In this document: piece by piece, positions 4,230-26,821 of the stretch
Numbering within the stretch: position 1 is the stretch's first letter
Layout of the letters: each line of letters starts with the position of its first letter
Source: Bacteroidaceae bacterium
Lineage (GTDB): Bacteria; Bacteroidota; Bacteroidia; Bacteroidales; Bacteroidaceae
Assembly: GCA_017628845.1 (NCBI GenBank)
Contig: JAGBYI010000218.1
Coordinates: 1-32,522 of the forward strand
Length of the DNA: 32,522 nucleotides
Direction: 5' to 3'
Position numbers and translations under genes: made by a program
The notes under the pieces: generated by a model
The model's database searches: none
The model's input: the letters and a program-made list of their open reading frames with translations, nothing else
Told to the model about the DNA's origin: nothing

Positions 4230-4525
4230 AACCGACGAGGAACCGCGTCATGTGCCCTGATTGTTGGAGGCTGAAGATGCTGTTCAAGACTCGAAAGAAA
4301 GCCATCAACTTCATTAAGTGGAACAAGGACGAGCTCGAATATGGTGGCGAGACCCTTCGTGCATACTATTGCCGAGCGTGCTGCGGATGGCACATTTCGC
4401 ATCAACCTGTGCGATGGTATGGCCGATGGGTGCCAACTGATACCGAAAGCAGCCTTCGCAACGAGCAGCGAGCTAAAAACAAACAGTACAACAAACAAAA
4501 ACGAAGAAATAATGATGAAGAGTAA
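4226..4525 (+). CDS. Small zinc-ribbon-like protein
   Basis: The product is 99 residues. CPDC (residues 9-12) and CRAC (residues 50-53, followed by CGWHISH) form two Cys pairs that could hold one zinc ion in a ribbon. The C-terminus is basic and Asn/Lys-rich. The gene overlaps the previous one by ATGA and has GGAACTATG as its start context. Its TAA stop is embedded in the first copy of the repeated GTAAACC element. Probable nucleic-acid-binding or structural zinc protein; exact role unknown. Confidence 0.75.
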   Translation: MKPTRNRVMCPDCWRLKMLFKTRKKAINFIKWNKDELEYGGETLRAYYCRACCGWHISHQPVRWYGRWVPTDTESSLRNEQRAKNKQYNKQKRRNNDEE

Positions 4526-4550
4526 ACCTTTGACCGACTTTCATACGATA
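4522..4550 (+). promoter_or_regulatory. GTAAACC-N17-CGAT element, copy 1
   Basis: GTAAACC at 4522, GACTTTC at 4536 and CGATA at 4546. This is the first of seven copies with the same 24-nt register. It overlaps the stop of the zinc-ribbon gene and precedes the spanin-like gene and its leader. Interpreted as a phage-specific promoter or start-associated regulatory site. Confidence 0.6.
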
Positions 4551-4591
4551 TAATGCCCGAGGAGGGAGGAATAGATTTTTCTATCATGGTT

Positions 4592-4653
4592 TCCGCCAAG
4601 TCCATCGGGGTATGCCGTGCAACGCGGTACCGACGAGAAACTGGCGGATTTTT
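4592..4653 (+). terminator. Structured leader with terminator-like stem upstream of spanin gene
   Basis: TCCGCCA (4592-4598) pairs with TGGCGGA (4642-4648), which is followed by TTTTT. Inside, TCGG-TA pairs with TA-CCGA and CCG with CGG. It lies between repeated element copy 1 and the spanin ATG, so it could be an attenuator or a terminator for read-through. Confidence 0.6.
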
Positions 4654-4666
4654 AACGCTCGAAACT

Positions 4667-5149
4667 ATGAACAAACGACAACGAGAAGAATACGACATTG
4701 AGCTCATGGGCGGCGTCTTGAAAGGCTGCCTCTCGGCCGTCGTGTTCTGGATAGTTCTGATCATGCTCGTGCTGCTGATGGCCAGCTGCAAGACGCGGAC
4801 GGTAGTGGTCGAGACTGTACGCACGGACACAACCTACATAACGAAGCACCAACGCGACTCGATATACATTCAGGACTCAACGCACGTCAGCGAACAGCAA
4901 CACGGCGACACAATGTATATCAAAATCACCAAGTGGCACACGAAGTATGTGGACAGAGCCGTTCACGACACGACCTACATCGCCACGCACGACACCATCC
5001 CCGACCCCTACCCTGTCGAAGTCAAGGTGCCGCGCGAACTGAATTGGTGGCAGAAAGCCTTGCAGCGCATCGGAGGCATCGCACTCGGCTTGATGCTTAT
5101 GTGGATAATATGGAAAGCATGGAAGCTGTGGAAGTTTTTCCATCCGTAA
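4667..5149 (+). CDS. Spanin-like lipoprotein with C-terminal membrane segment
   Basis: The product is 160 residues. A hydrophobic segment (residues 22-40) ends in LLMASC, a lipobox-like site with Cys41. The middle is Thr/His/Asp-rich and beta-like (repeated DTTYI). A second hydrophobic segment (about 131-152, GIALGLMLMWIIW) lies near the C-terminus. An outer-membrane lipid anchor at one end and a transmembrane segment at the other is the plan of unimolecular spanins, which fuse inner and outer membranes in the last step of lysis. Next come a membrane coiled-coil protein and an M15 endolysin, supporting a lysis role. I chose ATG 4667 (context GAAACTATG) over the in-frame ATG 4553, because the extra residues would run through the leader hairpin. 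Without the lipid anchor it would simply be a two-TM protein. Confidence 0.75.
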   Translation: MNKRQREEYDIELMGGVLKGCLSAVVFWIVLIMLVLLMASCKTRTVVVETVRTDTTYITKHQRDSIYIQDSTHVSEQQHGDTMYIKITKWHTKYVDRAVHDTTYIATHDTIPDPYPVEVKVPRELNWWQKALQRIGGIALGLMLMWIIWKAWKLWKFFHP

Positions 5150-5150
5150 G

Positions 5151-5179
5151 GTAAACCTGTCACCATGTCGCGCACGATA
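5151..5179 (+). promoter_or_regulatory. GTAAACC-N17-CGAT element, copy 2
   Basis: GTAAACC at 5151 and CGATA at 5175 keep the 24-nt register. The interior (ATGTCGC) departs from the GACTTTC consensus. It sits immediately after the spanin stop and 23 bases before the ATG at 5202. Confidence 0.55.
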
Positions 5180-5201
5180 TATAGAAATACTTATATATAA
5201 A

Positions 5202-5657
5202 ATGGAAATCTCATTCGATACACTGATTAACATTGCCGGACTGTTCCTGAGCGGAAGCGTCGGCGGTTTTGTGGCTTGGAAATGGCAACGTCGCAAGATG
5301 AAAGCTGAAGCCCAGACAGAAGAAGTGAACATGGCCAAAGCCGTGCAAGACACATACCAGCAGATGCTGAAAGACAAAGAGGAAGAGGTGGCCGACAAGA
5401 ACCGCATCATCACTGAACTTCGCGAAGACCGTGACCACTTCCGGCAAGACCGCAACGAACTGCGTGAACGCATAGATAAAACCGAATCACTCGTCAGGGA
5501 ATTGCAAGAGCAAGTCAGCGAGAATCGAAGAGAAATTGACATGATGCGCCCTTTTCTCTGTGGCGTGCTTGGTTGCAAGCTAAGAAAGCCCGTGGCAATA
5601 TCAGCGGCCCCTTCTGCTGAGAAGCCCAAGAAACAAACAAAAAAGAAAGAAGCATGA
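5202..5657 (+). CDS. Membrane-anchored coiled-coil protein of the lysis module (i-spanin or holin candidate)
   Basis: The product is 151 residues. There is one N-terminal membrane segment (residues 7-26), then basic KWQRRK, a long coiled coil (about 30-120, rich in Glu/Arg/Lys), a short CGVLGC segment and a Lys-rich tail. An N-terminal anchor plus periplasmic coiled coil is the plan of Rz-type inner-membrane spanins, while its position before the endolysin also suits a holin. The stop overlaps the endolysin start as ATGA, so translation is coupled. Lysis assignment by context; exact role unsettled. Confidence 0.75.
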   Translation: MEISFDTLINIAGLFLSGSVGGFVAWKWQRRKMKAEAQTEEVNMAKAVQDTYQQMLKDKEEEVADKNRIITELREDRDHFRQDRNELRERIDKTESLVRELQEQVSENRREIDMMRPFLCGVLGCKLRKPVAISAAPSAEKPKKQTKKKEA

Positions 5658-6085
5658 CACCCATCACATCACACTTCTGCCTGGAGGAATTCACAGCCAG
5701 CGCGACAGCCAAAGCCAAAGGAATTGCCAACACGCCGACGCAGCAAGCCGTCGTGAACATCACGGCCTTGTGCATTTCCGTTCTCGAACCTCTCCGAAAA
5801 TGGTGGGGCAACGAAGTCAAAATCGGAAGCGGTTATCGTTGCAAGGCTTTGAACCAAGCCGTCGGTGGTGTGTATAACAGTCAGCACCTTACAGGCCAGG
5901 CTGCCGACCTCTGCCTGGACGGCGACAAGCAGAAGGGCTTGAAGTGGTTCGAGTATATCCGTCGCAATCTTCCGTTCGATCAGCTCATCTTGGAACACAA
6001 CTCAAATGGAACATATTGGGTGCATGTCTCGTTCAACGCCCAGGGCAAGAACCGACATCAAGTAATCGACAATCTTTTGAAGTAA
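5654..6085 (+). CDS. Endolysin: M15-family D-Ala-D-Ala/L-Ala-D-Glu peptidase
   Basis: The 143-residue single-domain zinc peptidase should cleave peptide cross-links of peptidoglycan. The motif SGYRCKALN is followed by SQHLTGQAADL, giving zinc ligands His78 and Asp85; the third ligand is His124 in WVHVSF, and Glu114 is the likely catalytic base. The length is typical of Peptidase_M15_3 phage enzymes. There is no signal peptide, so it needs a holin to reach the wall. The ATGA overlap with the upstream gene and the following terminator mark the end of the lysis module. Confidence 0.9.
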   Translation: MTPITSHFCLEEFTASATAKAKGIANTPTQQAVVNITALCISVLEPLRKWWGNEVKIGSGYRCKALNQAVGGVYNSQHLTGQAADLCLDGDKQKGLKWFEYIRRNLPFDQLILEHNSNGTYWVHVSFNAQGKNRHQVIDNLLK

Positions 6086-6118
6086 TAAGTGTTTTTTTTG
6101 TGCATTTTTTTTATCGCA

Positions 6119-6145
6119 GGCTCGCTGGGAAGTGGGTCTTTTTTG
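6119..6145 (+). terminator. Rho-independent terminator after endolysin
   Basis: GGCTCGCT pairs with AGTGGGTC (8 bp, three G-T pairs) around GGGA, followed by six T. Repeated element copy 3 begins 6 bases later, as expected for a stop-then-restart of transcription. Confidence 0.7.
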
Positions 6146-6150
6146 TTTCG

Positions 6151-6186
6151 GTAAACCTATTAGCACCTTTCATGCGATAAGAAAAG
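6151..6186 (+). promoter_or_regulatory. GTAAACC-N17-CGAT element, copy 3
   Basis: GTAAACC at 6151, ACCTTTC at 6165, CGATA at 6175 and AGAAAAG at 6180. It follows a terminator directly and precedes the connector gene at 6206, so a promoter role is most natural here. Confidence 0.6.
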
Positions 6187-6205
6187 AACAAACAAAAATG
6201 AAGAT

Positions 6206-6559
6206 ATGAAATGGTTGACTTTAGACAAAATTAAGGCTCAGCTGCGCATCGACCCGAGCTTCACGCTCGAGGACGACATACTGACGATGTATGGCGAGAG
6301 CGCAGAAGACAGCGTGCTTGACATCATACGAAGGAGCCACGAAGATGTATTGGAGAAATACGGCAAGGTGCCCACGCCGCTCGTCCACGCAAGCCTGATG
6401 CTCGTGGATTTGAGCTACAAAGAGCGCGGACCTGTCAGCTCGCAGAACCTCTACCAGGTCCCCTACGCCGTGGACTTCAAGCTGAAGCCCTACATGAAAC
6501 TGTCAGACGAAGACGAACAAACAAACAACACACAATATGGCAAACATTGCAATCTTTAG
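6206..6559 (+). CDS. Head-tail connector (gp6-like adaptor)
   Basis: The product is 117 residues. The N-terminus [16 protein letters not shown] is the QLR signature of gp6-like phage connectors (HK97 gp6 / PF05135 type). A helical body with [19 protein letters not shown] and a [18 protein letters not shown] segment matches that fold. These proteins form a ring below the portal. Its last 23 bases overlap the start of the collagen-like fibre gene, so the two are coupled. It is placed far from the portal (16284), which is unusual for the family. Confidence 0.8.
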
Positions 6560-7637
6560 AATCAATTATAAGTCGGATTTTATTCTGACTTTAGAAAGCG
6601 ATGCAGGCTGGATGACGCCATTCTGCATCAAGTTTTGGACGGGTGCCCCATCGCAGGCATACTTTGCCGGATGGGACGGTACGACCTACACCAACTGCGA
6701 ACCGGTGGAAGGTGAACCAACAAAGCTGCTTGTTCAGTTCGACGACCACAAGCTACCAATCGGAAATTTGAAATACCAAGTCGGTTACCATTTCACGGTG
6801 TCTGACTTCCCAACCTCCATTGAAGACGAGGTAATCAACCCCGCCAGCATCATCATCGAGATAGATGGCGTTCAATATCAGGTTATGCTTGACTTTACAG
6901 GAGAAACTGCGCCCGAAATTCAGTTCTCATTGCCCGCTTACGCCAACGAAGCACAGCGTATCGCAAACGAGGAAGAACGCGAACGCATCTTTGCGGAAAT
7001 GCAATCCGAGAACGCAGAGGCTGTTGAAGGTGCTGAAAAAGTCAACGCAGAACTGAGCGGCACGATATTGACCGTGACAAACCGCGCTGGCGTCAGCACG
7101 AGCAAAAACGTTCAAGGCCCACAAGGAGAGCAAGGCCCACAAGGGGAGCAAGGTCCGCAGGGTGCAACTGGTCCACAAGGTCCGCAAGGTCCGAAGGGAG
7201 CCACAGGCGCAACGGGTGCAACTGGTCCGCAAGGTCCACAAGGTCCGACAGGAGCAACAGGCGCAACGGGTGCAACTGGTCCACAAGGCCCTGCTGGTCC
7301 ACAAGGCCCAGTCGCAAAGGTTGATATTGCAGCAGAAGCGCAAACCATTACGACACTTGCTTGCGAGATAGATAAATACTATCGTCTGGATGCAGCCGTT
7401 GACACTTTGGCAATCACTTTGCCGACCATTACAAGCACAGGAATTGTCGAGATGCTTGTTATTGCACTCACGACAGGAACAACGCCAAACATCACAATAT
7501 CTGGTGGCGCGGGCGTTACAATTCAATACTACGACAGTTATCTGATTGAGGCAAGCACATCGTATGAAATCAACTGTCTTTGGAACGGAACTGCTTGGGT
7601 AGTTGGTGCAGCAAAAATAAACGCGGGAGGGGCATAA
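6537..7637 (+). CDS. Collagen-like tail fibre / virion appendage protein
   Basis: The product is 366 residues. An N-terminal domain (1-150) is followed by a helical stretch with [18 protein letters not shown] (about 141-160). A Gly-X-Y collagen-like repeat of about 22 triplets, rich in GPQ and GAT (about 193-260), comes next, then a C-terminal beta-rich domain (about 265-360) ending NINAGGA-like. The repeat should form a trimeric stalk, with the N-terminal part attaching to the virion and the C-terminal part forming the tip. It starts inside the preceding connector gene and is followed after one base by a receptor-binding candidate. The short period-9 DNA repeat could change copy number by slippage, which would vary fibre length. 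Confidence 0.85.
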
Positions 7638-7638
7638 T

Positions 7639-8253
7639 ATGAAGTCTTTGTTATTAAGAAGAAGAGTGTATGCTGGTGTAAGTGAAATAATTCCATACCA
7701 AAGAATTTCGTACATCTATGTGGATTATGACAGAAACCATTATATTGATTTCCCAATAAACGTTAATGCTGGGGACTATTTTGAAGTAGGTGGAACTATA
7801 TCATTTGGAGCTGGTTCAGGTTGCCTTTATTTTATGAATAACCAATATAGCAACACCCAATTTCGAGCCGTGGCAAGTTCTGGCTTACAAACATACGTTG
7901 GAACAAAAACGGCAGTTGGCGATGTCAGCGGTTTAATTCCTTATTCAACAAGCGAAAAAATGTCCATTGCTGTTTCAACAACATTTATAAAAAAGAATGA
8001 TGTTGAAACAAGTATATTGCGACCTATTACACAGGGAGTAAGTGGTTTTAGACTTTTTGGAGGAAGTTCTTCTCCTTCTTGGTCTTGTCGCACATATTTA
8101 TATGATTTTTATATTAAGAAAAATAATTCTGTCATATATGATTTAGTTCCTGTTCGTATAGGTACAACTGGATATTTATATGATAAGAAAAGCAAACAGA
8201 TTTTTGCCAATGGAGGCAGTGGGAGTTTTGTTCTTGGCCCAGATATTGAATAA
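7639..8253 (+). CDS. Probable receptor-binding / minor tail protein
   Basis: The product is 204 residues, beta-rich, with no signal peptide. The C-terminal part reads VIYDLVPVRIGTTGYLYD and ends NGGSGSFVLGPD. That LVPVR...G.LYD...F.N.G.G.F.LGPD pattern is common at the ends of tail and fibre proteins of gut phages, beside LamG-like or beta-sandwich tips. The gene is visibly AT-richer than the flanking fibre and tail genes, as expected for recently exchanged host-range modules. It starts one base after the collagen-like gene. Adsorption role is inference. Confidence 0.75.
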   Translation: MKSLLLRRRVYAGVSEIIPYQRISYIYVDYDRNHYIDFPINVNAGDYFEVGGTISFGAGSGCLYFMNNQYSNTQFRAVASSGLQTYVGTKTAVGDVSGLIPYSTSEKMSIAVSTTFIKKNDVETSILRPITQGVSGFRLFGGSSSPSWSCRTYLYDFYIKKNNSVIYDLVPVRIGTTGYLYDKKSKQIFANGGSGSFVLGPDIE

Positions 8254-8265
8254 AAATATGCGACT

Positions 8266-8499
8266 ATGATATACATTCACACAGAAACAGGAAAAATGTA
8301 CTACGGCGGAACTGCAATGACAAGAATGCTGGACAATAGCACACTTTGGAGTGGCATTCCAACAAGTGAGCAACTGACTGAGTGGGGATTCGTGGAGTAT
8401 ATTCCACCTGAACCACCAGAGCCACAACCACCAACACCTGAAGATGAGTTAGACCCTTATGAAGCATTAAACATTATAACAGGAGGGATTGAGGAATGA
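8266..8499 (+). CDS. Small fibre-associated protein
   Basis: The product is 77 residues. The N-terminus (MIYIHTETGKMYYGG) is like short proteins that follow fibre genes, followed by a proline-rich linker EPPEPQPPTPEDE and an acidic end. The ATGA overlap with the next gene couples their translation. It may help fibre assembly or link to the carbohydrate-binding protein that follows. Not assigned to a family. Confidence 0.7.
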   Translation: MIYIHTETGKMYYGGTAMTRMLDNSTLWSGIPTSEQLTEWGFVEYIPPEPPEPQPPTPEDELDPYEALNIITGGIEE

Positions 8500-8885
8500 A
8501 AAGGAAAGAGGCTTGGGCATATCGCAGAAGCATAGAGGCTGCTGCTGCCTTGCAAAGTGATGAGAAGGCTTTGGAGAACATCTATCTATATCCACTATGG
8601 GAAGCAGACAAGGCTGTGCAAGTGGATGAAAGATACAGGTATGGAGAAACTCTCTACAAGTGCGTACAAGCGCATACCACACAAGCAGATTGGACTCCTG
8701 ATGTTTCACCTGCTTTGTGGGTGGTTGTAAGTCTTGACGAGTTTCCTGCATGGGTGCAGCCTATTGGTGCAGTAGATGCCTACAATCAAGGTGACAAGGT
8801 TTCACACAATGAGAAGCACTGGATTTCCGATGTGGATGCGAATGTTTGGGAACCTGGTGTATATGGGTGGACTGAAGCTAATTGA
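8496..8885 (+). CDS. Carbohydrate-binding protein with two CBM5/12-like units
   Basis: The product is 129 residues. After a helical N-terminus there are two related units: YRYGETLYKCVQAHTTQ...W (about 46-75) and YNQGDKVSHNEKHWISDVD...W (about 92-125). Each has the Gly-Asp/Glu-x-V/L, aromatic and Trp spacing of chitin-binding type 3 / CBM5-12 domains. Such modules on virions bind polysaccharide, so it may hold the phage to host capsule or mucus glycan. It ends the fibre cluster and is followed by a repeat and a strong terminator. Confidence 0.75.
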   Translation: MKRKEAWAYRRSIEAAAALQSDEKALENIYLYPLWEADKAVQVDERYRYGETLYKCVQAHTTQADWTPDVSPALWVVVSLDEFPAWVQPIGAVDAYNQGDKVSHNEKHWISDVDANVWEPGVYGWTEAN

Positions 8886-8909
8886 AGATTGAAAAATTGA
8901 AGATTGAAA
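8881..8909. repeat. Tandem direct repeat, 2 x about 15 bp
   Basis: ATTGAAGATTGAAAA is followed by ATTGAAGATTGAAAG. It overlaps the stop of the carbohydrate-binding gene and abuts a terminator. A similar AATTGAACG tandem lies at 344-361. Confidence 0.75.
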
Positions 8910-8934
8910 GGCGGGGTTGGGCTCCGCCTTTTTT
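8908..8934 (+). terminator. Rho-independent terminator after fibre cluster
   Basis: AAGGCGG pairs with CCGCCTT and is followed by TTTTT. It separates the fibre genes from the gp10/tape-measure operon. Confidence 0.85.
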
Positions 8935-8945
8935 GTTTCCCGGTG

Positions 8946-8981
8946 GTAAACCCATCGCCGACTTTCAGCCGATTAGAAAAG
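8946..8981 (+). promoter_or_regulatory. GTAAACC-N17-CGAT element, copy 4
   Basis: GTAAACC at 8946, GACTTTC at 8960, CGATT at 8970 and AGAAAAG at 8975. It follows a terminator by 11 bases and ends just before the GGAACTATG start of the gp10-like gene. Confidence 0.6.
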
Positions 8982-8988
8982 AGGAACT

Positions 8989-9627
8989 ATGTTTTCGTTT
9001 GAAGCCGATAATGTTGTGATACTCCAGGAGCAGAAGGCACTCGAAGCCGCGCTCTCCACGAACCCCAAGACACAGAAAGCCTTGCAGAAACTTGTGCGTG
9101 AGGTTGTCCTGGAGGCTCGCCGCAAGGTGGTGAACAGCATCAAATTCGACAACGGCGACCCCCGAAACACCCGGCAAGCTGTACGTACGACTGTATATCG
9201 AAAAATACTCGGCGGCAACCTGAACATCCTCAATTCAAAGAAAGCGCACGGTAAGAACTCATATCAGACACCAAAAACATCAAGAGGAACGAGGCGCGGC
9301 GGCAACAGAATGGCTCGCTCTCCGCGCACCCAGCAGATTCTTGACTATGCACCATTCGACCGCGAGTTCATCATGCGCTTTGTTGACTCGGGTACGAAGC
9401 AGAGATTTGTCGGCTTCCGTAATGCTATGAAAGCTAACCACAACCGATACCTTCAGACGAAAGACCGATGGGATGCTGGCGAGAACCGCACCGGCAACCG
9501 TGGCTCAATAGCGGCTCGCGGATTCTTTGCCCGTTATGGCGAACGTGCAATGGAGTTGGCAGCAGATAGACTAGCAGGACTTATTGAAACGGAGCTCGCA
9601 GCAACATTAAACGGAATGAAAAAATAA
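8989..9627 (+). CDS. HK97 gp10-like tail-completion/neck protein
   Basis: The product is 212 residues and basic. The N-terminal pattern, a helix followed by EVVLEARRKVVNSIK and then a long basic loop with RRGGNR, resembles HK97 gp10-like minor tail proteins. A helical C-terminus contains ARYGERAMELAADRLAGLIE. Such proteins sit at the head-tail junction. The start GGAACTATG lies directly after repeated element copy 4. It is followed after 3 bases by the tape measure. It is longer than typical gp10 proteins because of the inserted basic loop. Confidence 0.7.
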   Translation: MFSFEADNVVILQEQKALEAALSTNPKTQKALQKLVREVVLEARRKVVNSIKFDNGDPRNTRQAVRTTVYRKILGGNLNILNSKKAHGKNSYQTPKTSRGTRRGGNRMARSPRTQQILDYAPFDREFIMRFVDSGTKQRFVGFRNAMKANHNRYLQTKDRWDAGENRTGNRGSIAARGFFARYGERAMELAADRLAGLIETELAATLNGMKK

Positions 9628-9630
9628 GAT

Positions 9631-11922
9631 ATGGCAAACAGTGTAGTAAAACTCAGCATAGACTCGCACGAGTTTGACGCGAATATCAAGCGTGCAGGTG
9701 AAGCACTTAATAAATTCTTCGACCAGGCCAAGAAGGGCGACCGTACCTTTGAGGTGATCGACGATGATGCGATGGAGGTCGTCAGGGCTTTCGGGCAGAT
9801 GGAAACGAAGAGCAAGTCAGCAAGCGGACAACTTGCAGAACTGACGAAAGGCTTCACAGACCTCAGTCTCGCTTATAAGCGAATGACGGATGAAGAAAAA
9901 GCCTCGCCAGTTGGCAAGGAAATAACAAATCAGCTTGATATTCTGAAGGGACGCATCCAGGACACTAAGAAAGACATCTCCGACATTAACGGCGAGATAA
10001 ATGGCGGTGGAGGTTTGACGGGTGCGCTCGACCAACTGGCTGGCAAGTTCGGACTGAACATTCAGCAGCTTGCCGGATGGGGTGCCGCTATAAGCGCAGC
10101 AAAAGTGGCACTTGATGTCGCAAAAGATGCAATCTTTGCATCTGAATCAAATGTCGATGAATGGGGAAGAACCGTAGAAGCGGCAGAAAGTGTATATAAT
10201 AGCTTTTTGCAAACCTTAAACAATGGCGACTTTTCCGGCTTTTTATCTCGCATACAAGATGTGATAACTAAGGCGCGTGATGCTTACGATGCACTTGATG
10301 AGCTACAAACGCGAGGCGGCATTGTAAACAGCGAGAGGTTAAGACTTCAAGCAAGACAGACTGAATTGAAGTCTATAATCAGAAGACAAGGCGCAGATAG
10401 TGATGCAGGAAAGGCTGCCCAATCAGAATTGAAACAACTTGAGGGGCAACTTACGAAAGCCTACAAGACTGAGGAAAAGCTCAATTATAACGCATTCAAA
10501 CAAAAGGTTGACGAAAAACTACAAGAAGCAGGCCTCAATCTTAACAAAAAAAGCTATGATTTCCTCATGCGTTCATTTAGCGATGATGCGGTTTTCGAAA
10601 CGCTAAAAAGGAATGCAAACGGAGCAAAAACCCCAGGGCAAGACACATATAAGGTTGATAGCAGCAATCCTTTAAACCTTAAAAAAATTGATCCTCGCAA
10701 CACTGAGCAAAAGCTGCTCGACTTGTTTACAGACGAATGGCGCAAAGAGTATAAGCCATTGCTTGATGCTTCATTCTCTGCAAGAAATTCTGCTGCAAGT
10801 TCACTGCTCGGAGATGCACGCTACTTGAAAAGCGGAACTGGCGGTGGCACTGGTGGCGGTGGTTCTACTACGACGGTGGCCAAGGAGCTCAATCCGATGC
10901 AGCAGGCGCAGAAGGAAATATCGGCTCTTACTGAGGAAGCACTGACTGCCGACGAGGGACGGCTTGAAGTTATCAAGAAAGAGATTGCGGCACTGCAAGA
11001 GCAGGTGAATGTATATAAATCAATCCAGGACTTCGTGCAAGGCAAGGAGCCGAATTGGAATATACAGGTTGGTGACCGCAAGGCTTTCGAGGCTGAACAG
11101 AAGAAGATATTTGAGGCAAATGGCGGCACGGCATCGCGTCTCGAGTCAATGCAGTATTCCGTGATGAAGGAAATCAAGGCCGAGGACACAAAGGTAGATA
11201 CCGAAACGCTTCACACTCTCCTGAAGGATGCTTTGCAAAACAACATCGACACAACATCTCTTGACCTCACTTCGATTGCCGAACAGATAGGCGAAGGAAT
11301 AAATGTGCCGGATGAAAAATGGCAAGCAATCCTCGACAAGTACAACGAGCTGAAGGCAGCCATCGGCGAAGAGCCTATCCAGATAGATTTCAATACGGGA
11401 AAAATTGCAGAGGACGGAAAGAAAGCCGATAAGACGTGGCAACAGGCCGCAAGTGCCGTGCAAAGTGTCGGCTCGGCATTCTCTCAGATTGAAGACCCAG
11501 CCACAAAAGCAATGGGAACAGTGATGCAAGCCATAGCAAGCATCGCCCTCGGCTTTGCGCAAGCATCCGCACAAGCAGGTTCAATGGGTCCGTGGGCATG
11601 GCTCGCATTCCTTGCCGCTGGTGCCGCTGCAACGGCTACGACCATTGCAACCATTCATTCGCTGACTGGGTTTGCAGAGGGCGGTATCGTTCAAGGCAAC
11701 GCATATAGTGGCGACAACGTTGGTCCCGTCATGTTAGACGCAGGCGAGCTCATCCTGAACAGGAGCCAGCAAGGAACGCTCGCAGAGGCTTTGACTTCTG
11801 GCAACAATCAGGGCGGAGCCGTAGGTGGCACGCCATACGTGACTGGCGAGAAGATAGTCCTCGGCATCAACAACTATGGCAAGAAGCAGGGCTGGGGTGA
11901 ATTAGTTTTTAGCAGAAGATAA
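9631..11922 (+). CDS. Tail tape measure protein
   Basis: The product is 763 residues. Long helical and coiled-coil stretches occupy about 50-590, with a GGGGLTG-type linker near 128 and a Gly/Thr linker (GGTGGGGSTTT) near 405. Near the C-terminus a hydrophobic segment (about 645-680, WAWLAFLAAGAAATATTIATIHSL is the landmark) precedes GFAEGGIVQGNAYSGDNVGP and a helix, a hallmark of tape measures. The protein sets tail length by spanning the tube and is ejected with DNA. Using about 1.5 angstrom per residue, the predicted tail is near 115 nm. The order gp10-tape measure-tail protein is normal, but the tail chaperone that usually precedes a tape measure lies 12 kb away at 21904. Confidence 0.9.
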   Translation: MANSVVKLSIDSHEFDANIKRAGEALNKFFDQAKKGDRTFEVIDDDAMEVVRAFGQMETKSKSASGQLAELTKGFTDLSLAYKRMTDEEKASPVGKEITNQLDILKGRIQDTKKDISDINGEINGGGGLTGALDQLAGKFGLNIQQLAGWGAAISAAKVALDVAKDAIFASESNVDEWGRTVEAAESVYNSFLQTLNNGDFSGFLSRIQDVITKARDAYDALDELQTRGGIVNSERLRLQARQTELKSIIRRQGADSDAGKAAQSELKQLEGQLTKAYKTEEKLNYNAFKQKVDEKLQEAGLNLNKKSYDFLMRSFSDDAVFETLKRNANGAKTPGQDTYKVDSSNPLNLKKIDPRNTEQKLLDLFTDEWRKEYKPLLDASFSARNSAASSLLGDARYLKSGTGGGTGGGGSTTTVAKELNPMQQAQKEISALTEEALTADEGRLEVIKKEIAALQEQVNVYKSIQDFVQGKEPNWNIQVGDRKAFEAEQKKIFEANGGTASRLESMQYSVMKEIKAEDTKVDTETLHTLLKDALQNNIDTTSLDLTSIAEQIGEGINVPDEKWQAILDKYNELKAAIGEEPIQIDFNTGKIAEDGKKADKTWQQAASAVQSVGSAFSQIEDPATKAMGTVMQAIASIALGFAQASAQAGSMGPWAWLAFLAAGAAATATTIATIHSLTGFAEGGIVQGNAYSGDNVGPVMLDAGELILNRSQQGTLAEALTSGNNQGGAVGGTPYVTGEKIVLGINNYGKKQGWGELVFSRR

Positions 11923-11923
11923 T

Positions 11924-13981
11924 ATGACGTACTTCGACAAAGACGATTACAGCGAAAGGTATTTTGTCCGTTTTGTTGACCTTGACGGGAACGAATGGCG
12001 AATCAGCATAATGGACCCGACGGACGTTTTCACACCTGTTGAATTGACGGGCGCAGCCAATCCTATTGAGTGGTTCGGTGTAGGTGATGAAAGCCAGACA
12101 AAGGTCGTGTGTGGCTCTACGGGCACACTTCGCCTGGTATGCCGCACGGCTGAGCAAGCCAGCAACATATTTGTCGTGGGTGGGTTGTTCCCCGAAGTCA
12201 TCAACGACCGCCGTGTGGATGTGACAAGAAAGCGCATGGACGGCAGCACTGCCGTGTGGGACTTGATATGGCAGGGATTCATCAAGCCGGAACAATACAC
12301 GCAAGACTGGGACAGTGCTCCGTTGGAGGTGGAATTGCCACTCGTTTCGCCCATTGCTGCAACTGAGTTCTTCACAATGCCGGAATATAATTACGTCAGC
12401 GAAATGACATATATAGCCGACTTGCTGAATTATGTCATCGGACTGCTCGGATGCAACATAAATGCCATCATGACGAACAAGCCCATATACGAGGACTTCA
12501 ATGGAAACACAAGAGTGGACTCAGGCGGAAGGCCAATGCACTGGACGCAAGGGCAATGCTCGTCGATGTATTTCTACGATTTCGAGTCGGACGGAATAAA
12601 ACCCAAAACAATAAAGGAAGTCCTCGAAACCATTTGCTACCCTTACGGAAAGGTTAATGATTGCCGCGACTTTGTGACGATCATGATGAATGCAGGCAAG
12701 TGGATAGACGGAGACAATCACATCTACACACTTGTAACGGATAGAATAAGTATAAACTATCGGCGTTTCGTCAGCGACAGCCAAAGACAAACGCAAATCA
12801 ATCTGTCGGATTTGCAGATAGCAAGCACGGAGAACAGCGTCACACTTGTCGCAAAGCCATCAAGCTACGAATTCAGCAATAAGATAAACGTAGAAAGCGA
12901 CGTATATGAAATGGACGAATCCTACATAAAGAGTTCGTTGCCTTGTGATGCTGATATAGTACAGGACTCGTCAAAGGTTGTGTCCGTGCAGCTTGATTCT
13001 CTTAATAAATACACATATCACTTTTCGGGCGACTATGTTGACCAGGCACTATACCAACCCGTATATCAATATGGATTGGTACAAGGAACGAACGACCCGC
13101 AATTTTGCAGAGTCGTCCATGTAGAAACTGAAGATGGAGGCACAACATTTAAATATAGCCTCCAAATGCCACTCGCCTTTTACGTTCCTGCTGGCGGAAC
13201 CATTGGCTTTGACGTGCCGGTGAAAATCAAGTCAACGGCAGGCATGAACAAAGTGAAGGTGTCATTCGATGTGTATTCGACAAATTACGAGGGAAGAAGC
13301 CCGTCAGGAGAAATTATGCAAGAAACACTTGCTCCTCGAATAATAGATGCAACGGCAGGCAAATACCTGGACCTTTCCACAAGGCAATGGAATGATGTGA
13401 GCGGCAACTATACAAGCTGGACATTCCAATCAATGGGATACCTGAGCGATTGCAAGGTAACGTTCAACGAACCTCGTGAATCAGGAGATAACAGCTTGCA
13501 CACGCTTCGATTTGTGCTTGCAGAACGTCCACTGATTGCAGGGACTCCAAGACAAAACATGTATGTGAAAATCACCATTGAATATGTGCGCGACGACACA
13601 TATACGAACCAGGGCGTAGCCGACACCTTCACGAGCACACTGCAAAACACAGGTGAAAGGGCTTCGCTTGGCAGTTCTGGCGAAGCAATCAGCGTTGACT
13701 TCAAAACAATGTGCGGACGAACGTCTGTTGTAATCAATGGCAATTCTTATGCACCGGCGAATGGCTTTTGTGATTCACAAAAATACATAGACAAGGGCAA
13801 CCGCCAAAAGATAGAATTGGAGGCTGTGAAGTTCAACATGGATTTTGTCGTGCGTCCTTTCCTTGTGAACGACGGCAATACGGTATATGTCCCGGTAGCT
13901 TTCGGAATGAGTCCGCGTGACAATATCGCAAGAATAACACTTGTATCAACTAACCTCGGATTAACACCACCAACATCATGA
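11924..13981 (+). CDS. Large tail / baseplate protein following the tape measure
   Basis: The product is 685 residues and mainly beta-rich. An N-terminal domain (about 1-140) reads like a tail-tip domain (YFVRFVDLDGNEWRISI, then WQGFIKPEQYTQDW), followed by a larger region with no recognised catalytic motif. Its position directly after the tape measure (ATG one base after the stop) is that of distal tail or tail-associated baseplate hub proteins in siphoviruses. It lacks an obvious peptidase or lysozyme domain. The stop overlaps the next start as ATGA. Specific family not identified. Confidence 0.8.
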   Translation: MTYFDKDDYSERYFVRFVDLDGNEWRISIMDPTDVFTPVELTGAANPIEWFGVGDESQTKVVCGSTGTLRLVCRTAEQASNIFVVGGLFPEVINDRRVDVTRKRMDGSTAVWDLIWQGFIKPEQYTQDWDSAPLEVELPLVSPIAATEFFTMPEYNYVSEMTYIADLLNYVIGLLGCNINAIMTNKPIYEDFNGNTRVDSGGRPMHWTQGQCSSMYFYDFESDGIKPKTIKEVLETICYPYGKVNDCRDFVTIMMNAGKWIDGDNHIYTLVTDRISINYRRFVSDSQRQTQINLSDLQIASTENSVTLVAKPSSYEFSNKINVESDVYEMDESYIKSSLPCDADIVQDSSKVVSVQLDSLNKYTYHFSGDYVDQALYQPVYQYGLVQGTNDPQFCRVVHVETEDGGTTFKYSLQMPLAFYVPAGGTIGFDVPVKIKSTAGMNKVKVSFDVYSTNYEGRSPSGEIMQETLAPRIIDATAGKYLDLSTRQWNDVSGNYTSWTFQSMGYLSDCKVTFNEPRESGDNSLHTLRFVLAERPLIAGTPRQNMYVKITIEYVRDDTYTNQGVADTFTSTLQNTGERASLGSSGEAISVDFKTMCGRTSVVINGNSYAPANGFCDSQKYIDKGNRQKIELEAVKFNMDFVVRPFLVNDGNTVYVPVAFGMSPRDNIARITLVSTNLGLTPPTS

Positions 13982-14379
13982 ACGGAAATAATGTATATAT
14001 CAGCATCGGAGAGGGGACGTCCTCGACGATTATTGCAGGCACGAAGGTCAACGAAATACAGACGGAGTGCGAGACGATTGAAATCAGCGGGCCAAACGTG
14101 GCGGAGTGGAGGCAGCACATCGTGAAACGCAAGGAATGGAGTATGTCGGCCAACTATCTCATCACGAACTTTGCGCAGATTCAAGGCATCCTGCAATCAG
14201 GCACGGAGGTCGGCATCGTCGTGGTCGGACGCGATGGCACCACAATGAGCACCCTGCTACAAGGACGTGCCATCGTAAAGCAGGGCAAGCAGTCGTTCAC
14301 GCGCGGCAAGCTGGCGCAAGGCTCGTGGAAGTTCATCGGCAACGGACCGCTCACGGCTCCGAACCTTTCGCTTGAGTAA
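13978..14379 (+). CDS. Single-domain tail-tube-like protein
   Basis: The product is 133 residues. The pattern of beta strands, with EIQTECETIEISG, then WRQHIVKRKEWSMSANYL, a GTEVGIVVV strand and a C-terminal LAQGSWKFIGNGPL, is that of TP901-1/lambda-type tail tube folds. It is translationally coupled (ATGA) to the baseplate gene. A second, double-domain tube-like protein is encoded at 20907, so this one may form a tail-tip ring or alternative tube subunit. The TAA stop lies inside repeated element copy 5. Confidence 0.65.
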   Translation: MNGNNVYISIGEGTSSTIIAGTKVNEIQTECETIEISGPNVAEWRQHIVKRKEWSMSANYLITNFAQIQGILQSGTEVGIVVVGRDGTTMSTLLQGRAIVKQGKQSFTRGKLAQGSWKFIGNGPLTAPNLSLE

Positions 14380-14411
14380 ACCCAACGCGGACTTTCGTAC
14401 GAATAGAAAAG
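14376..14411 (+). promoter_or_regulatory. GTAAACC-N17-CGAT element, copy 5
   Basis: GTAAACC at 14376 (including the stop of the previous gene), GACTTTC at 14390, CGAAT at 14400 and AGAAAAG at 14405. It precedes the head-tail joining gene at 14418. Confidence 0.6.
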
Positions 14412-14417
14412 ACTACT

Positions 14418-14777
14418 ATGGCATACCAAAGCGGATTCTTAAAGTATAGGGTGACGGTGCAGAACAAGGTGGCCGGCAAGGGCTTCGGCGAAACGACGAA
14501 GTTTCAGGACGTGGCGACTGTATGGGCAAGCGTGACGTTCACGAAGGGCATGAAAGCCATGCACGAGGGAGCCCTCGACGCTTATGACACGGTGATGATA
14601 CGTATGCGCTACAACAACTTCACCACGCGCGACTCGCTGCTCATCTATGACGGAATCACCTATCAGATATTGTCATTCCACGCCGACAAACAAGAGAACG
14701 AAATACAAATCACTGCCTGCGAACTGGTGCAGGGTGCTCCGGCTCCTGCCCAGCAAGGCGGGGCGGTAGTAAAATAG
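14418..14777 (+). CDS. Head-tail joining protein (SPP1 gp16 / PF05521-like)
   Basis: The product is 119 residues. The beta-barrel pattern with TVWASVTFTKGMKAMHEG, then DTVMIRMRYNNFTTRDSLLIYDG and ITYQILSFHADKQENEIQITA, matches phage head-tail joining (head-closure) proteins. They seal the head after packaging and dock the tail. The start lies just after repeated element copy 5. It is followed by a glycosyltransferase rather than by tail genes. Confidence 0.85.
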   Translation: MAYQSGFLKYRVTVQNKVAGKGFGETTKFQDVATVWASVTFTKGMKAMHEGALDAYDTVMIRMRYNNFTTRDSLLIYDGITYQILSFHADKQENEIQITACELVQGAPAPAQQGGAVVK

Positions 14778-14783
14778 GGAACT

Positions 14784-16280
14784 ATGAAGAAACAAATCGC
14801 AATCGTACATTTCAACACGCCAGAGCTCACCGAGTCGTGCATCCTGAGCATCCGCAAGGTGGGGTGCCATTGGCCGGTGACGGTGCTTGACAATAGCGAC
14901 AAGCGTCCGTTCAAGGTGAAGATGAAGGGCGTGACCATCATCGACAACACGAAGGGACAAATCATCGACTTCGACGAGGAACTGGAACGCTTCCCGGAAC
15001 GCTGCTGGGACATGGCAAAAAAGTCGAACTACGGCAGCGCAAAGCACATGATGAGTGTTCAATACCTGTGGGGCGTGCTGAAGGAGGGCTTCATCCTTGT
15101 GGAGAGCGACGTGCTCATTAGGCAGCCGTTCGATTTCCTTTGGGACGAGCAATATGCAGCCACAGGCAAGGCGCAGTGGTTCCGTGGCCGTCGCATCGAG
15201 AAGGACAGACTCTTGCCGTGGCTCTGCTACATGAACGTGCCTTTGCTCACGGCTAACGGCGCAAGGTATTACGACCCCGAACGCTGCTGGGGCTTGCAGC
15301 CAGGAGGGATGCAGAACCCGAACAACTGGTACGACACGGGCGCACCGCTATTGGAGGACATCATCAAGACGAAGCCGCAGCTTTCTGCGCGTCTCTACTC
15401 CGACCTCGACAAGTGCTACATCCACTACTGCGGCGGCTCGTGGCGCGGCAACGACATCAAGCAGCAGGCCGAATGGCTCAGCAAGAACGAGACGTACTGG
15501 AAGCCGGAGGACAACTCGGACGCAAAGATATTCATTTGCACACACACGGACTTCGAGCCGGTGGTGAAGAATGAAATATACGAAGTTCTGGACAGCCGCA
15601 AGATGAAAAGCGGAAATGTGCCTGACCTCTACTACTCAGAACTGTGGCAGATGAAGAATGTCAGCGAAAGGAAGACGTTACCGAAGTATATCGGCTTCTG
15701 CCACTATCGCCGCTATTTCGGCTTCATGGATGCAGTGCCAAACATCGGGAAACTCATTGAAGCACGCGGAGCCATCACAACGAAGAAAGCCGACTTGAAT
15801 ATGACCATGCGCCAACAGTATGCAACCTGGGGCAACCCCGAAGACCTTGACATCTGCACGCAGATCATCAACGAGAAATATCCCGACTTTGCACCGGCAT
15901 GGAACCGTTCTCTCGCCAGCAAACAGATGCACATAGGCACGCTGTCGATAATGAAGACCGACGACTGGCTGGAAATGCTCAACGTAATGTGGGACGTTGC
16001 CCAGGAATACTTGAAGCGCATCGGTGGCGACATCGTGAAGCGAGTCGAAGAAAACCCCAAGGCATACCACATCGGAGAACAGCCCTTCTTTACCTTCACA
16101 CACGAGCTGCGTGTAGGCGGTCAGTTTGCCGAGCGCATCAACTCCGCTTGGATGGATTGGAAATTTCCACGCGCCTACGAGGTGCCGCTAAAGGTTACGC
16201 ACGAAAAGATTGAGGTTCCGTTCGAGGAGAAGAAGAGTAAACCCACGAGCAAGAAACGCGCGAATAAGAAAGGAAAGTAA
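14784..16280 (+). CDS. Two-domain glycosyltransferase (GT2-like + DUF4422)
   Basis: The product is 498 residues. Residues 1-about 245 look like a GT-A fold glycosyltransferase: VHFNTPELTESCILS at the start, ILVESDVLI as the probable metal/nucleotide-binding DxD-like site, then a WRGNDI landmark. Residues about 250-480 are a DUF4422 domain (IFICTHTDFEP, GFCHYRRYFGF, HIGTLSIM, HIGEQPFFTFTHELR), also a putative glycosyltransferase. The C-terminus is a Lys/Arg tail. The start has GGGAACTATG. It sits among head genes, between the joining protein and portal, so it probably glycosylates a virion protein or modifies a host surface glycan. The acceptor cannot be read from the sequence. Repeated element copy 7 lies in its 3' end. 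Confidence 0.85.
   Translation: MKKQIAIVHFNTPELTESCILSIRKVGCHWPVTVLDNSDKRPFKVKMKGVTIIDNTKGQIIDFDEELERFPERCWDMAKKSNYGSAKHMMSVQYLWGVLKEGFILVESDVLIRQPFDFLWDEQYAATGKAQWFRGRRIEKDRLLPWLCYMNVPLLTANGARYYDPERCWGLQPGGMQNPNNWYDTGAPLLEDIIKTKPQLSARLYSDLDKCYIHYCGGSWRGNDIKQQAEWLSKNETYWKPEDNSDAKIFICTHTDFEPVVKNEIYEVLDSRKMKSGNVPDLYYSELWQMKNVSERKTLPKYIGFCHYRRYFGFMDAVPNIGKLIEARGAITTKKADLNMTMRQQYATWGNPEDLDICTQIINEKYPDFAPAWNRSLASKQMHIGTLSIMKTDDWLEMLNVMWDVAQEYLKRIGGDIVKRVEENPKAYHIGEQPFFTFTHELRVGGQFAERINSAWMDWKFPRAYEVPLKVTHEKIEVPFEEKKSKPTSKKRANKKGK
16237..16272 (+). promoter_or_regulatory. GTAAACC-N17-CGAT-like element, copy 7 (inside 3' end of a gene)
   Basis: GTAAACC at 16237, CGAAT at 16261 and AAGAAAG at 16266 keep the register of the intergenic copies, but the interior is not conserved. 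It codes for a Lys-rich tail here, so chance is possible. It precedes the portal ATG by 47 bases, the same range as other copies. Confidence 0.35.
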
Positions 16281-16283
16281 GTT

Positions 16284-17612
16284 ATGGAACTATTCGGAAT
16301 GAACTTTTTTGGTAAGCGCGAAGCGACGCCAGGGGTGCCGCAGACGACCAATCCGAACGCCGCAAGCAACAAGTCGGACGTGAAGGGCGGCAACTGGGAG
16401 GCCAACGTGGTGCGCCCACACGGTCGCTCCTCTCTGCTCATACCGACATGGACGCGCTGCGTGACGCTCATCATGCAGACGATGGGGCAGATGGTGACGC
16501 AATACCAGCGCATCAATGCCGAGGGCGGAAACTTCATCGAGGACCGCTACGGCAAGAACGGCTACCTGAACTATCTGTTGCAGGTTCGCCCGAACCCCCT
16601 GATGACGGCCAGCCAGCTTCAAGAGCAAATCGAGTACCGCAAAATCTACTACGGCAACGCCTACGTCTATATCGAGCGTGAGCGTGACGGCTACCCTCGC
16701 CATTTGTGGCTCTGCACTGGTGGCGGCTACAATCCGCTGAGCAATAAGTACAACCTCGTGTATAACTCGGACAGAGGTCCGCGTGTCAAGGTGGAGGCCG
16801 ACGCAGCCGACGTGCTGCACTTCAAAAACGTCTTCATGACCGAAGACATGTATATGGGCATCCCCACCATCGACTATGCGTTCAAGGCACTCACCATTGC
16901 AGCTACCGGCGACGAGCAGGCACTGCAAGACGTGGCCAAGGGCGGTAAGATGAAAATCATCATCGGCGAGGAGCAGCAGCCCACCTTCCAGGGCACCGTT
17001 GCAATGGGCCTCTTCGATAAGAAGGAGATGGACAAGTACGCAATGGAGCTGGAGGAGAAGTTGGCCGGCAACGATGTCGTGGCAATGCGAGGACTGAACG
17101 ACCTGAAAATCATCTCGCAGACTGCCCAGCAGTTGCAACTGCTCGAGCAACGCGGCTACTCGGACGAGGCACTTTGCCGTCTGATGGGTGTGCCGAAAAT
17201 CATCGCCATCGTGGGCGACGGAGGCGGCAACTACCGAATGCCAGAACACGCCACGCAGGAGTTCCTGCTCCGCACCATACAGCCACGCATCCGTGAGCAC
17301 GAGGACGAACTGAACTCAAAGCTGCTTTCGCCGTCCGACTTCGGCAAGCGCAGGATTCATGTGTGCGAACTTGCCCTGAAACGACTCGACGCAAAGGGAC
17401 AAGCCGAAATCGACAAGTTACACCTCGATGCAGGCTGGAGCGTCAACGAGATACGCTCGTCCTACGACCTGCCCAGCATCCCCAACGGCGACGCTCACTA
17501 CGTCAGCACCAATCTTGCCGAGGTGGGAAGCGAGAAGTTGCGCAGCAACGGCGGAGGAAGGCCGAGCGGAGAACCGAAAAAAGAAGAGGACGTAACGGAA
17601 AATGAAAATTGA
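16284..17612 (+). CDS. Portal protein (HK97 family)
   Basis: The product is 442 residues, usual for HK97-type portals. Recognisable segments are SLLIPTWTRCVTLI near the N-terminus, LLQVRPNPLMTASQLQEQIEYRKIYYGNAYVYI (landmark near 93-125), the DVLHFKN strand, and late GYSDEALCRLMGVP with a C-terminal helical region. The protein forms the dodecameric ring at one capsid vertex through which DNA enters. The C-terminus is Gly/Glu-rich. It precedes the HU-like protein, protease and capsid genes, the expected neighbours apart from the inserted HU-like gene. Confidence 0.95.
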   Translation: MELFGMNFFGKREATPGVPQTTNPNAASNKSDVKGGNWEANVVRPHGRSSLLIPTWTRCVTLIMQTMGQMVTQYQRINAEGGNFIEDRYGKNGYLNYLLQVRPNPLMTASQLQEQIEYRKIYYGNAYVYIERERDGYPRHLWLCTGGGYNPLSNKYNLVYNSDRGPRVKVEADAADVLHFKNVFMTEDMYMGIPTIDYAFKALTIAATGDEQALQDVAKGGKMKIIIGEEQQPTFQGTVAMGLFDKKEMDKYAMELEEKLAGNDVVAMRGLNDLKIISQTAQQLQLLEQRGYSDEALCRLMGVPKIIAIVGDGGGNYRMPEHATQEFLLRTIQPRIREHEDELNSKLLSPSDFGKRRIHVCELALKRLDAKGQAEIDKLHLDAGWSVNEIRSSYDLPSIPNGDAHYVSTNLAEVGSEKLRSNGGGRPSGEPKKEEDVTENEN

Positions 17613-17639
17613 CGTAAGGTAAAAATAAAATTGACGTAA
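17605..17639. repeat. Direct repeat, two 13-bp copies 22 bp apart
   Basis: AAAATTGACGTAA occurs at 17605-17617 and 17627-17639, in the gap before the HU-like gene and including the portal stop. A further GACGTAAC lies at 17589-17596. The pair could be a regulator site or a duplication that shifted the portal stop. Confidence 0.7.
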
Positions 17640-17643
17640 CGAT

Positions 17644-18120
17644 ATGGCACAATTAACGCTTAAGGTCAAGAAGGTCGCCAACAAGAACCTTCGCACGAAA
17701 GTAATGGGTTTCGCCAGCCGTGCAATCGCTAACGGTGTGGCAACCTTCGACGACATCTGCGCACAGGCAGCACTCAACACGACACTCCATCCGAAGGAGT
17801 TGGCACTGGCTTTCGGCCTCGCACTCGATGCTGTGCGCGACGCACTGAAGAACGGCAAGATTGTTGACCTCGACCAGATTGGACGGCTCTACCCCGCCAT
17901 CAGCTCGCATTGGACGGAAACGGAAGAGGAGCAAACCATCGACGGGCTGACGAAGCGCGTGGCCTACCGTCCAAGTCAGGAAATCACAGCAGCCATTGCC
18001 GGTGCCCGCCTCGCCTGGGCAACCAAGCAGGAGGCTGAGGAAAGCGACGACAACGGCACCACTACCGATGACGGTGGCGACAACGGCGGTGGCAATCAGG
18101 GCGGAGAACTCGAAGGCTAA
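17644..18120 (+). CDS. HU-like DNA-binding protein with Gly-rich tail (HU-HIG type)
   Basis: The product is 158 residues. Residues 1-about 125 match the Bacteroidetes HU-HIG pattern: a beta strand (AQLTLKVKKVAN), a helix pair with a DDICAQAALNTTLHPKELALAF landmark, VRDALKNGKIVDLDQIGRLYP as the HU-type core, and VAYRPSQEI in the C-terminal arm. An acidic/Gly-Asn tail ending GGELEG follows, the same ending as the gene at the window start. HU-like proteins bend and compact DNA. Between portal and protease genes it may be a virion or late DNA-organising protein. That placement-based role is inference. Confidence 0.85.
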   Translation: MAQLTLKVKKVANKNLRTKVMGFASRAIANGVATFDDICAQAALNTTLHPKELALAFGLALDAVRDALKNGKIVDLDQIGRLYPAISSHWTETEEEQTIDGLTKRVAYRPSQEITAAIAGARLAWATKQEAEESDDNGTTTDDGGDNGGGNQGGELEG

Positions 18121-18122
18121 AG

Positions 18123-18151
18123 GTAAACCCATACGCGACTTGTGCGCGATA
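18123..18151 (+). promoter_or_regulatory. GTAAACC-N17-CGAT element, copy 6
   Basis: GTAAACC at 18123, GACTTGT at 18137 and CGATA at 18147. It begins 2 bases after the HU-like stop and precedes the protease ATG by 56 bases. Confidence 0.55.
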
Positions 18152-18178
18152 TGTAGATAACTTTTCACAAAAAAGAAT

Positions 18179-26710: not shown

Positions 26711-26821
26711 CGATTTAGGTGCCTTTAAGCCACTTTAATCTTAAATTATGTTAAGAATTTAAGTGGTTTTAGGTCGTTTTAAATAGATTTATATATCTTT
26801 GCACTCAGAAAACCTAAATCG
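26711..26821. promoter_or_regulatory. Lysogeny operator region with nested inverted and direct repeats
   Basis: CGATTTAGGT (26711-26720) and ACCTAAATCG (26812-26821) are a perfect 10-bp inverted pair bracketing the early promoter. Between them an imperfect palindrome has arms 26730-26744 and 26751-26766 (CCACTT...CTTAA / TTAAG...AAGTGG). TTAGGT-N2-YTTTAA-like half-sites recur directly at 26715 and 26769. Repressor binding at several sites with looping is likely. Confidence 0.75.
26771..26801 (+). promoter_or_regulatory. Early (lytic) promoter
   Basis: TATCTTTG at 26794-26801 matches the Bacteroidetes -7 element TAnnTTTG. No TTG is at the expected -33 place (AGG at 26771-26773), so the promoter may be weak or activator-dependent. 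It is embedded in the operator. Confidence 0.65.

Follow-up and report, generated by a model that had tools for sequence, protein, structure and literature searches.

A rigidly spaced two-box element before late genes: probable late promoters of Bacteroidales phages, working with a phage-encoded activator

A two-box element repeated in a Bacteroidaceae phage contig

What is the function of a short element that recurs seven times, always on one strand, near the starts of late genes in a 32,522-nucleotide (nt) stretch from Bacteroidaceae bacterium (assembly GCA_017628845.1, contig JAGBYI010000218.1; the whole stretch is referred to as the window), and which protein reads it? An earlier note, made from the sequence alone, had described the element as GTAAACC (box 1) followed exactly 24 nt later by CGAT or a close variant (box 2), and had proposed either a promoter or a start-associated repressor site. 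We find that the element is real and conserved, and that it most probably represents a class of late promoters in phages of Bacteroidales, working with a phage-encoded activator. The explanation that fits best, to which we assign a probability of about 0.7, is a phage late promoter that would be used by host RNA polymerase together with a phage-encoded specificity factor. The conservation of the element, its rigid spacing, strand bias, position before late genes, geometry relative to terminators and start codons, and the change of box 1 between phages were all computed directly.

The seven copies and the hairpins adjoining two of them are as follows (offsets in the text count from the first letter of GTAAACC, which is offset 0):

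4522..4556, + strand, putative late promoter copy 1 (GTAAACC 4522-4528, CGAT 4546-4549), before a lysis-type gene, likely ATG 4586
5151..5185, + strand, putative late promoter copy 2, before gp5202-5657
6118..6139, + strand, terminator-like hairpin directly upstream of copy 3
6151..6185, + strand, putative late promoter copy 3, before the head-tail connector gene 6206-6559 (Pfam Phage_connect_1)
8906..8932, + strand, terminator-like hairpin directly upstream of copy 4
8946..8980, + strand, putative late promoter copy 4, before gp8989-9627
14376..14410, + strand, putative late promoter copy 5, before the head completion gene 14418-14777 (Pfam Phage_HCP)
16237..16271, + strand, putative late promoter copy 6, in the end of open reading frame (ORF) 14784-16280, before the portal gene 16284-17612 (Pfam Phage_portal)
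18123..18157, + strand, putative late promoter copy 7, before the prohead protease gene 18179-18859 (Pfam Peptidase_S78)

Both boxes are present at all seven coordinates of the earlier note, 24 nt apart each time and all on the + strand. The pattern GTAAACC-N17-CGA(T/A) thus has seven exact matches in the window, compared with a mean of 0.01 and a largest value of 1 in 100 dinucleotide shuffles, and GTAAACC itself occurs seven times on the + strand and never on the - strand. With two mismatches allowed the pattern is not significant (16 matches in the window vs 12.96 in shuffled sequences). Across the whole metagenome-assembled genome (MAG) the exact pattern is found 14 times, seven in the window contig (C22) and seven in a second contig (C27), and the backward control gave 1.

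Several details of the original description needed adjustment. GACTTTC at offset 14, which had been listed for copies 1, 3, 4, 5 and 6, is exact in copies 1, 4 and 5, approximate in copy 3 (ACCTTTC) and missing from copy 6 (AAGAAAC), and copy 7 has the near-match GACTTGT; as a third box it was dropped, being confined to the window and close relatives and not conserved in the wider set. AGAAAAG does stand at offset 29 in copies 3, 4 and 5. The label "intergenic" is only partly right, since in copies 1 and 5 the element runs over the stop codon of the ORF before it and copy 6 is contained in the end of an ORF. A distance of 42-56 nt to the start codon, claimed for six of the seven, applies to copies 2-7 (51, 55, 43, 42, 47 and 56 nt) and not to the lysis copy, for which the distance is 64 nt if the gene starts at ATG 4586, in the frame whose peptide resembles relatives by eye. 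The terminators reported directly before two copies correspond to the terminator-like hairpins listed above; the same scan yields 18 such matches in total vs 18.7 in shuffles.

C27 (L103, L104), a phage contig of the same MAG, is 99.8-99.99% identical to window positions 19-28562, with alignments that break at 7116-7309, and the two may be strain variants or an assembly duplicate. Within the tail fibre ORF 6537-7637, the region 7100-7320, where C27 and the window differ, contains collagen-like repeats of the Gly-Pro-Gln type (by eye).

Conservation among related phages

Related phages were collected by a search of IMG/VR with the window portal protein, from which the best 80 of 108 loci were taken, together with five loci found by the pattern. 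Among 262 GTAAACC occurrences on both strands of these loci (L015-L099), CGA(A/T) follows at +24 in 88 cases, and each of the other spacings from 8 to 59 accounts for at most 8. The 84 distinct sites used to derive a motif were picked on both boxes, with both strands searched and the seven window copies included; they yield R-GTAAACC-Y, C at offset 12, a W-rich stretch at 17-19, G at 21, CGAWW at 24 and an A-rich continuation. A position weight matrix (PWM) trained on these 84 exact matches, many of which come from the 19 records on which it was then run, detects at score 10 92 sites on the late-gene strand and one on the opposite strand (reversed controls 0 and 1). When the box-1 triplet is unconstrained, a search of 43 records at score 13 detects no opposite-strand site.

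A fair test of the two-box element is provided by sites selected on GTAAACC only; there the second box returns unselected. Such sites number 323 on the late strand vs 48 on the other; the former have R at -1 in 90%, Y at 7 in 93%, C12 in 59%, G25 in 71%, A26 in 63%, T31 in 54% and A32 in 70%, and the latter show none of these preferences. The 24-nt spacing is rigid. Between the window and G236 the spacers differ in six of seven sites, taken in order, with the boxes unchanged.

De novo counting of 7-mers upstream of ORFs in 19 records places GTAAACC on top in nine; in G007 and G013 the top 7-mers are shifted forms of the phage's own box, in G029 and G310 the box ranks lower, in G008 GGTTAAC is found, a palindrome that hides the strand, and in G304, G157, G277, G016 and G030 the box is not listed. 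We infer that the hosts of the phage group are Bacteroidales; three MAG contigs that bear the candidate reader described below are labelled Bacteroidales, Bacteroidaceae and Muribaculaceae, respectively. In a collection of cultured phages the window portal has 192 matches, all below 60% identity and the best at 25.5%, and the capsid matches only Bacteroides phages F2, F4 and Bacuni_F1, at 26%.

Position relative to late and early genes

The gene following the element was identified in 51 records for 156 PWM sites (score 11), a start of a recognised family being required within 160 nt. It is late in 125 of the 126 sites with a recognised start (30 further sites have none): protease 29, portal 24, connector 21, gp8989 14, gp14418 14, gp5202 11, lysis, tube and gp11924 3 each, tape measure, HU and capsid 1 each, and RepA 1. 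None of the 126 stands before a primase, RHH (ribbon-helix-helix), HNH, TerL, DUF3127, early winged helix-turn-helix (wHTH) or XRE gene. Counted from the genes, box 1 lies within 170 nt upstream of the protease in 31/32 records and of the portal in 28/31, compared with 0/44 for the RHH gene and 1/27 for TerL. All six late anchors carry the box in the window, C27, G001, G011 and G038.

The host-type promoter element TAnnTTTG has a different distribution: it precedes the protease in 0/32 records and the portal in 2/31, and it is found before the first early gene in 8/34 (reversed control 0). In the window the contrast case is:

26794..26801, + strand, host-type -7 element TATCTTTG, before the early operon (26951 onward)

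These counts bear on the alternative that the element is a start-associated operator, a binding site for a repressor or another regulator ahead of the late starts, with the promoters elsewhere. Its copies do sit before start codons, and RHH proteins are often repressors. The two other promoter types looked for are, however, not enriched, neither TAnnTTTG before protease and portal nor sigma70-type promoters (14 in window positions 4000-19000 vs 13.9 in shuffles), and an operator leaves unexplained both the -10-like second box and the terminator geometry described below. Our analysis turned up nothing in favour of the repressor idea, and we consider it the least probable of the explanations weighed here.

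Terminators, start codons and the predicted start point

At 253 sites we found 86 terminator-like hairpins, compared with 84 in 1500 random windows. Wholly upstream of box 1 are 54 of them and wholly downstream is one; 16 lie within offset 0-38, three of these beginning upstream of box 1, and in the remaining 15 the spacer or box 2 is covered by the 5' arm and followed by the 3' arm. In four hairpins (G002 36499, G010 2380, G038 9589 and L094 6455) the CGA box is inside the 5' arm, a compact overlap of promoter and terminator.

Start codons anchored by gene family fall at offset 32 or beyond in 137 of 138 sites, the exception being a PWM site inside RepA of G310 that we take as spurious, and A32 is the most conserved A outside box 1. 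We infer from these positions that transcription starts at about offset 32-36, i.e. at about 4554 for copy 1, so that box 1 would fall at about -32 to -26 and CGA at about -8 to -6. An initial guess of offset 39 was replaced by this range in view of the start codons. The earlier note had expected transcripts to start 5-12 nt past CGAT; our prediction differs in detail, with the start-codon edge at offset 32 falling 8 nt after the C. The strand bias, the placement and the geometry of terminators and start codons would all fit a late promoter that starts near offset 32-36.

Hairpins near the element could also point to antitermination, with GUAAACC acting as a put- or Q-like RNA or DNA site that loads an antiterminator able to pass nearby terminators. 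In its favour, 31 of the hairpins lie within or across the element, including the three that begin upstream of box 1. Against it, 54 of the 86 hairpins are wholly upstream and a single one is wholly downstream, and in some genes the start codon directly follows the element. Neither conserved RNA structure nor the covariation that the earlier note had wished to see checked was found: 30 aligned sites gave an empty consensus structure with pairing below that of shuffles, and column pairs of 272 sites reached a best z of 2.7. A spacer palindrome GCA-N4-TGC, first seen by eye, was rejected on the same pairing result. We regard antitermination as highly improbable.

Variation of box 1 between phages

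In some phages another form of box 1 runs throughout, e.g. GTACCCC or GTAACCTA, with the -10-like part of the element kept. G013 has GTACCCC seven times on the + strand and never on the - strand, at five of six late-gene anchors; one of these sites, at 11952, seems to lie within a gene. With a GTAAACC-bearing phage it shares 78% identity in the portal, and among the records found with this portal those that carry GTACCCC are G013 itself and one contig with an identical portal. G017 has three GTACCCC on the + strand and none on the - strand. In G310, a prophage-like contig from another genus of the host family, six AGTAACCTA are found on the + strand and none on the - strand; two of the six precede starts that read like portal and protease, and in four of six the spacing between a TA and CC matches that of GTAAACC sites (by eye). 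In G008 both the portal and the protease anchor carry GTTAACC; as GGTTAACC is palindromic, the strand is uninformative in this phage. Since box 1 changes while the -10-like part stays, the specificity factor that reads box 1 is probably encoded by the phages themselves.

As a side observation, two of the seven GTACCCC sites of G013 (L129, L130) share flanking sequence near the two ends of the record, which suggests a direct terminal repeat and perhaps a complete circular genome.

The same variation bears on the proposal that an extracytoplasmic function (ECF)-type sigma factor, of host or phage origin, recognises AAAC at -35 and CGA at -10 and needs no activator. ECF promoters combine AAAC and CGA boxes with a rigid spacer, as the element does with its rigid 17-nt spacer, and the XRE-type HTH protein encoded at 963-1214 matches Sigma70_r4 above cut-off (3.9e-06, 26.7 bits). 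This protein matches HTH_3 better (45.2 bits), and it is missing in 12 of 23 related records. Besides it, no sigma family and no ECF gene was found among the 29 window genes compared with Pfam (as 30 proteins, with two versions of one gene; most tail genes and the integrase were outside the scan). Within the MAG the 14 exact sites are confined to the two phage contigs, and 397 of 399 genomes of the host family have fewer than three, so that there is no host regulon with the exact motif. A box 1 that varies over a constant -10-like part also speaks against a sigma factor acting by itself, and we judge this explanation rather improbable. As to the two promoter versions of the earlier note, a special sigma factor or host polymerase with a late activator, the comparative data best support the latter, and among the window genes scanned no phage-encoded sigma factor was found apart from the XRE-type match just described.

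A candidate reader of box 1

One gene of the early region is a candidate for the reader:

31205..31849, + strand, candidate reader, 214-aa ribbon-helix-helix-like protein of a conserved family, between the primase and HNH genes

We give about even odds that this protein reads box 1. Twelve portal-derived records (window included) extend as far as the primase, and 11 of them contain the family, the miss being G017. This is the unbiased figure, because the 23 records used for the gene table were chosen to hold both portal and RHH and the count of 23/23 is therefore given by construction. Among the early genes compared in these 23 records, none but the RHH gene is both universal and suggestive of a DNA-binding regulator. 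Its N-terminal consensus, ATKV...RL...AK..G...Y.LLQM.CDTLIRYMDD, has the look of a ribbon-helix-helix fold.

A search with the RHH profile alone gave 83 loci, of which the best 80 were taken. Two or more PWM or exact sites are present in 21 of the 24 RHH records that contain a portal, the remaining three being G013 and G310, with the changed box, and G016, with one site; none of the eight RHH records that lack PWM sites in the 43-record set has a portal. At least three exact sites occur in two of the 399 host-family genomes, both times with an RHH gene on the same contig and strand. The profile has nine matches in these genomes, and the seven without at least three exact sites comprise three contigs of 6-7 kb and four more distant homologues, G310 among them. 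In 295 genomes of the order the profile matches the source genome only. In PHROGs the family matches two weak unnamed families and in NCBIfam none, and the cultured-phage collection yielded no match to the RHH protein of G010.

Several observations weigh against assigning the element to this protein. The RHH similarity is below Pfam cut-offs (RHH_10 at best 0.00023, in 2/15 N-terminal segments; Antitox_RHH 0.013, in one), and there is no significant PDB match. In the contigs with more distant RHH homologues G277, G304 and G157 no such box was found. G737 has a different box 1 (AAAGAAAACCCC, two sites by eye) with an ordinary strand in its RHH protein. G020 (L218), whose RHH-protein strand equals that of G013, has GTACCCC once on the + strand, and its GTAAACC count is 0 on the DNA strand of the RHH gene and 6 on the - strand, the reverse of all other RHH records. 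A simple code linking the protein strand (KQQTKVH in G013 and G020, LLTRVT in G310, LLQTKVS in G025) to the box was therefore rejected, as G020 has one site only, G737 has an ordinary strand and G025 keeps GTAAACC. In the 23 records, HNH, integrase and structural genes are moreover as universal as RHH.

This last point also favours the possibility that the promoter works as proposed with another phage protein as its reader, e.g. a second early regulator or an ORF outside those considered here, a variant that overlaps with the preferred explanation. The link to the RHH protein is drawn from position, near-universality and loose co-change. Among the regulators compared, however, the early wHTH protein 26951 is absent from 6 and XRE26278 from 2 of the 23 records, in addition to the XRE protein at 963 discussed above. 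A different reader appears unlikely, if less so than the other alternatives.

Proposed mechanism and its weak points

For a late promoter with a phage-encoded activator, the following sequence of events can be envisaged, the promoter identity, start point, sigma factor used and reader being predicted from sequence. A specificity factor produced from the early operon would bind box 1 (RGTAAACCY), about 26-32 nt upstream of the start, and the host RNA polymerase holoenzyme would recognise box 2 (CGAWWARTA, the -10-like part). Transcription would start at or just past offset 32 and yield short-leader or nearly leaderless mRNAs of the lysis, connector, head completion, portal and protease operons. 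Read-through from upstream would be halted by terminators that precede or overlap the element, and transcripts begun at the element would lack the 5' arm of an overlapping hairpin and so might escape it.

Some results do not sit easily with such a promoter. Box 2 does not match the host TAnnTTTG -7 element. The opposite strand of the same 253 windows holds 52 terminator-like hairpins. Box 1 is also found within 170 nt upstream of the primase in 4/41 records and of RepA in 2/44, and in some RHH phages few late anchors are boxed (G034 1/6, G012 2/7, G032 2/6, G037 2/6). Nine starts fall at offset 32-36, and two portals, those of G007 and G009, start at 32, which would imply either leaderless mRNAs or a conflict with the start at 35-39 expected from sigma70- or ECF-like geometry; according to the excerpted text of PMC7366714, 5' untranslated regions under 10 nt make up only about 3.7% in Bacteroides thetaiotaomicron.

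A wider proposal, that the element is a lineage-wide late switch in which a new RHH activator family redirects host RNA polymerase and co-evolves with a phage-specific -33-type box, with built-in terminators and near-leaderless mRNAs, is put forward tentatively, as somewhat doubtful in its full form.

Comparison with known systems

The closest parallel in working mode may be the middle promoters of phage T4, in which, as described in excerpts of PMC2988021, a phage box at -30 (the MotA box) replaces the -35 element and acts with a sigma70 -10 element by sigma appropriation. Common to both are a phage-specific box combined with a -10-like element and many copies per genome, with host RNA polymerase presumed here. 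They differ in sequence, host phylum, the late genes served, the RHH-like candidate reader and a box 2 unlike the sigma70 -10 element. The scan of 29 window genes named neither a MotA nor an AsiA family, and no search was aimed at either. We suggest by analogy a T4-like working mode and do not claim membership.

Bacteroidetes primary-sigma promoters have TTTG at -33 and TAnnTTTG at -7 with a spacer of variable length (excerpted text of PMC7366714). With a start at offset 32 the two boxes would take similar places, at about -32 and -7; unlike in these promoters, the spacer is rigid and TAnnTTTG is absent at nearly all sites. With mycobacteriophage start-associated sequences and stoperators the element shares a dispersed distribution, one orientation and proximity to gene starts, and it differs from them in having two boxes with a -10-like part, in its place before late operons and in overlapping terminators. 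As with the RinA/ArpU and Q late regulators, the gene of the candidate reader sits immediately before the HNH gene and packaging block; unlike them, its product has an RHH-like look, and Pfam, PHROGs and NCBIfam gave no homology. Among the titles listed by searches of open-access literature, we found nothing on late-gene activation in Bacteroidales phages, on RHH late activators or on GTAAACC.

With a defined promoter class, the late operons of many uncultured phages could be located by sequence alone. It also singles out one candidate activator for testing and could supply promoters with different boxes of use in Bacteroides genetics.

Other features of the window

Two phage tRNA genes are present in the window, tRNA-Tyr at 28007-28090 and tRNA-Cys at 28309-28380. 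The ORFs 1-226 and 17644-18120, the former cut by the contig start and the latter matching HU-HIG, have Gly-rich tails that look alike by eye; BLAST clustering kept them apart.

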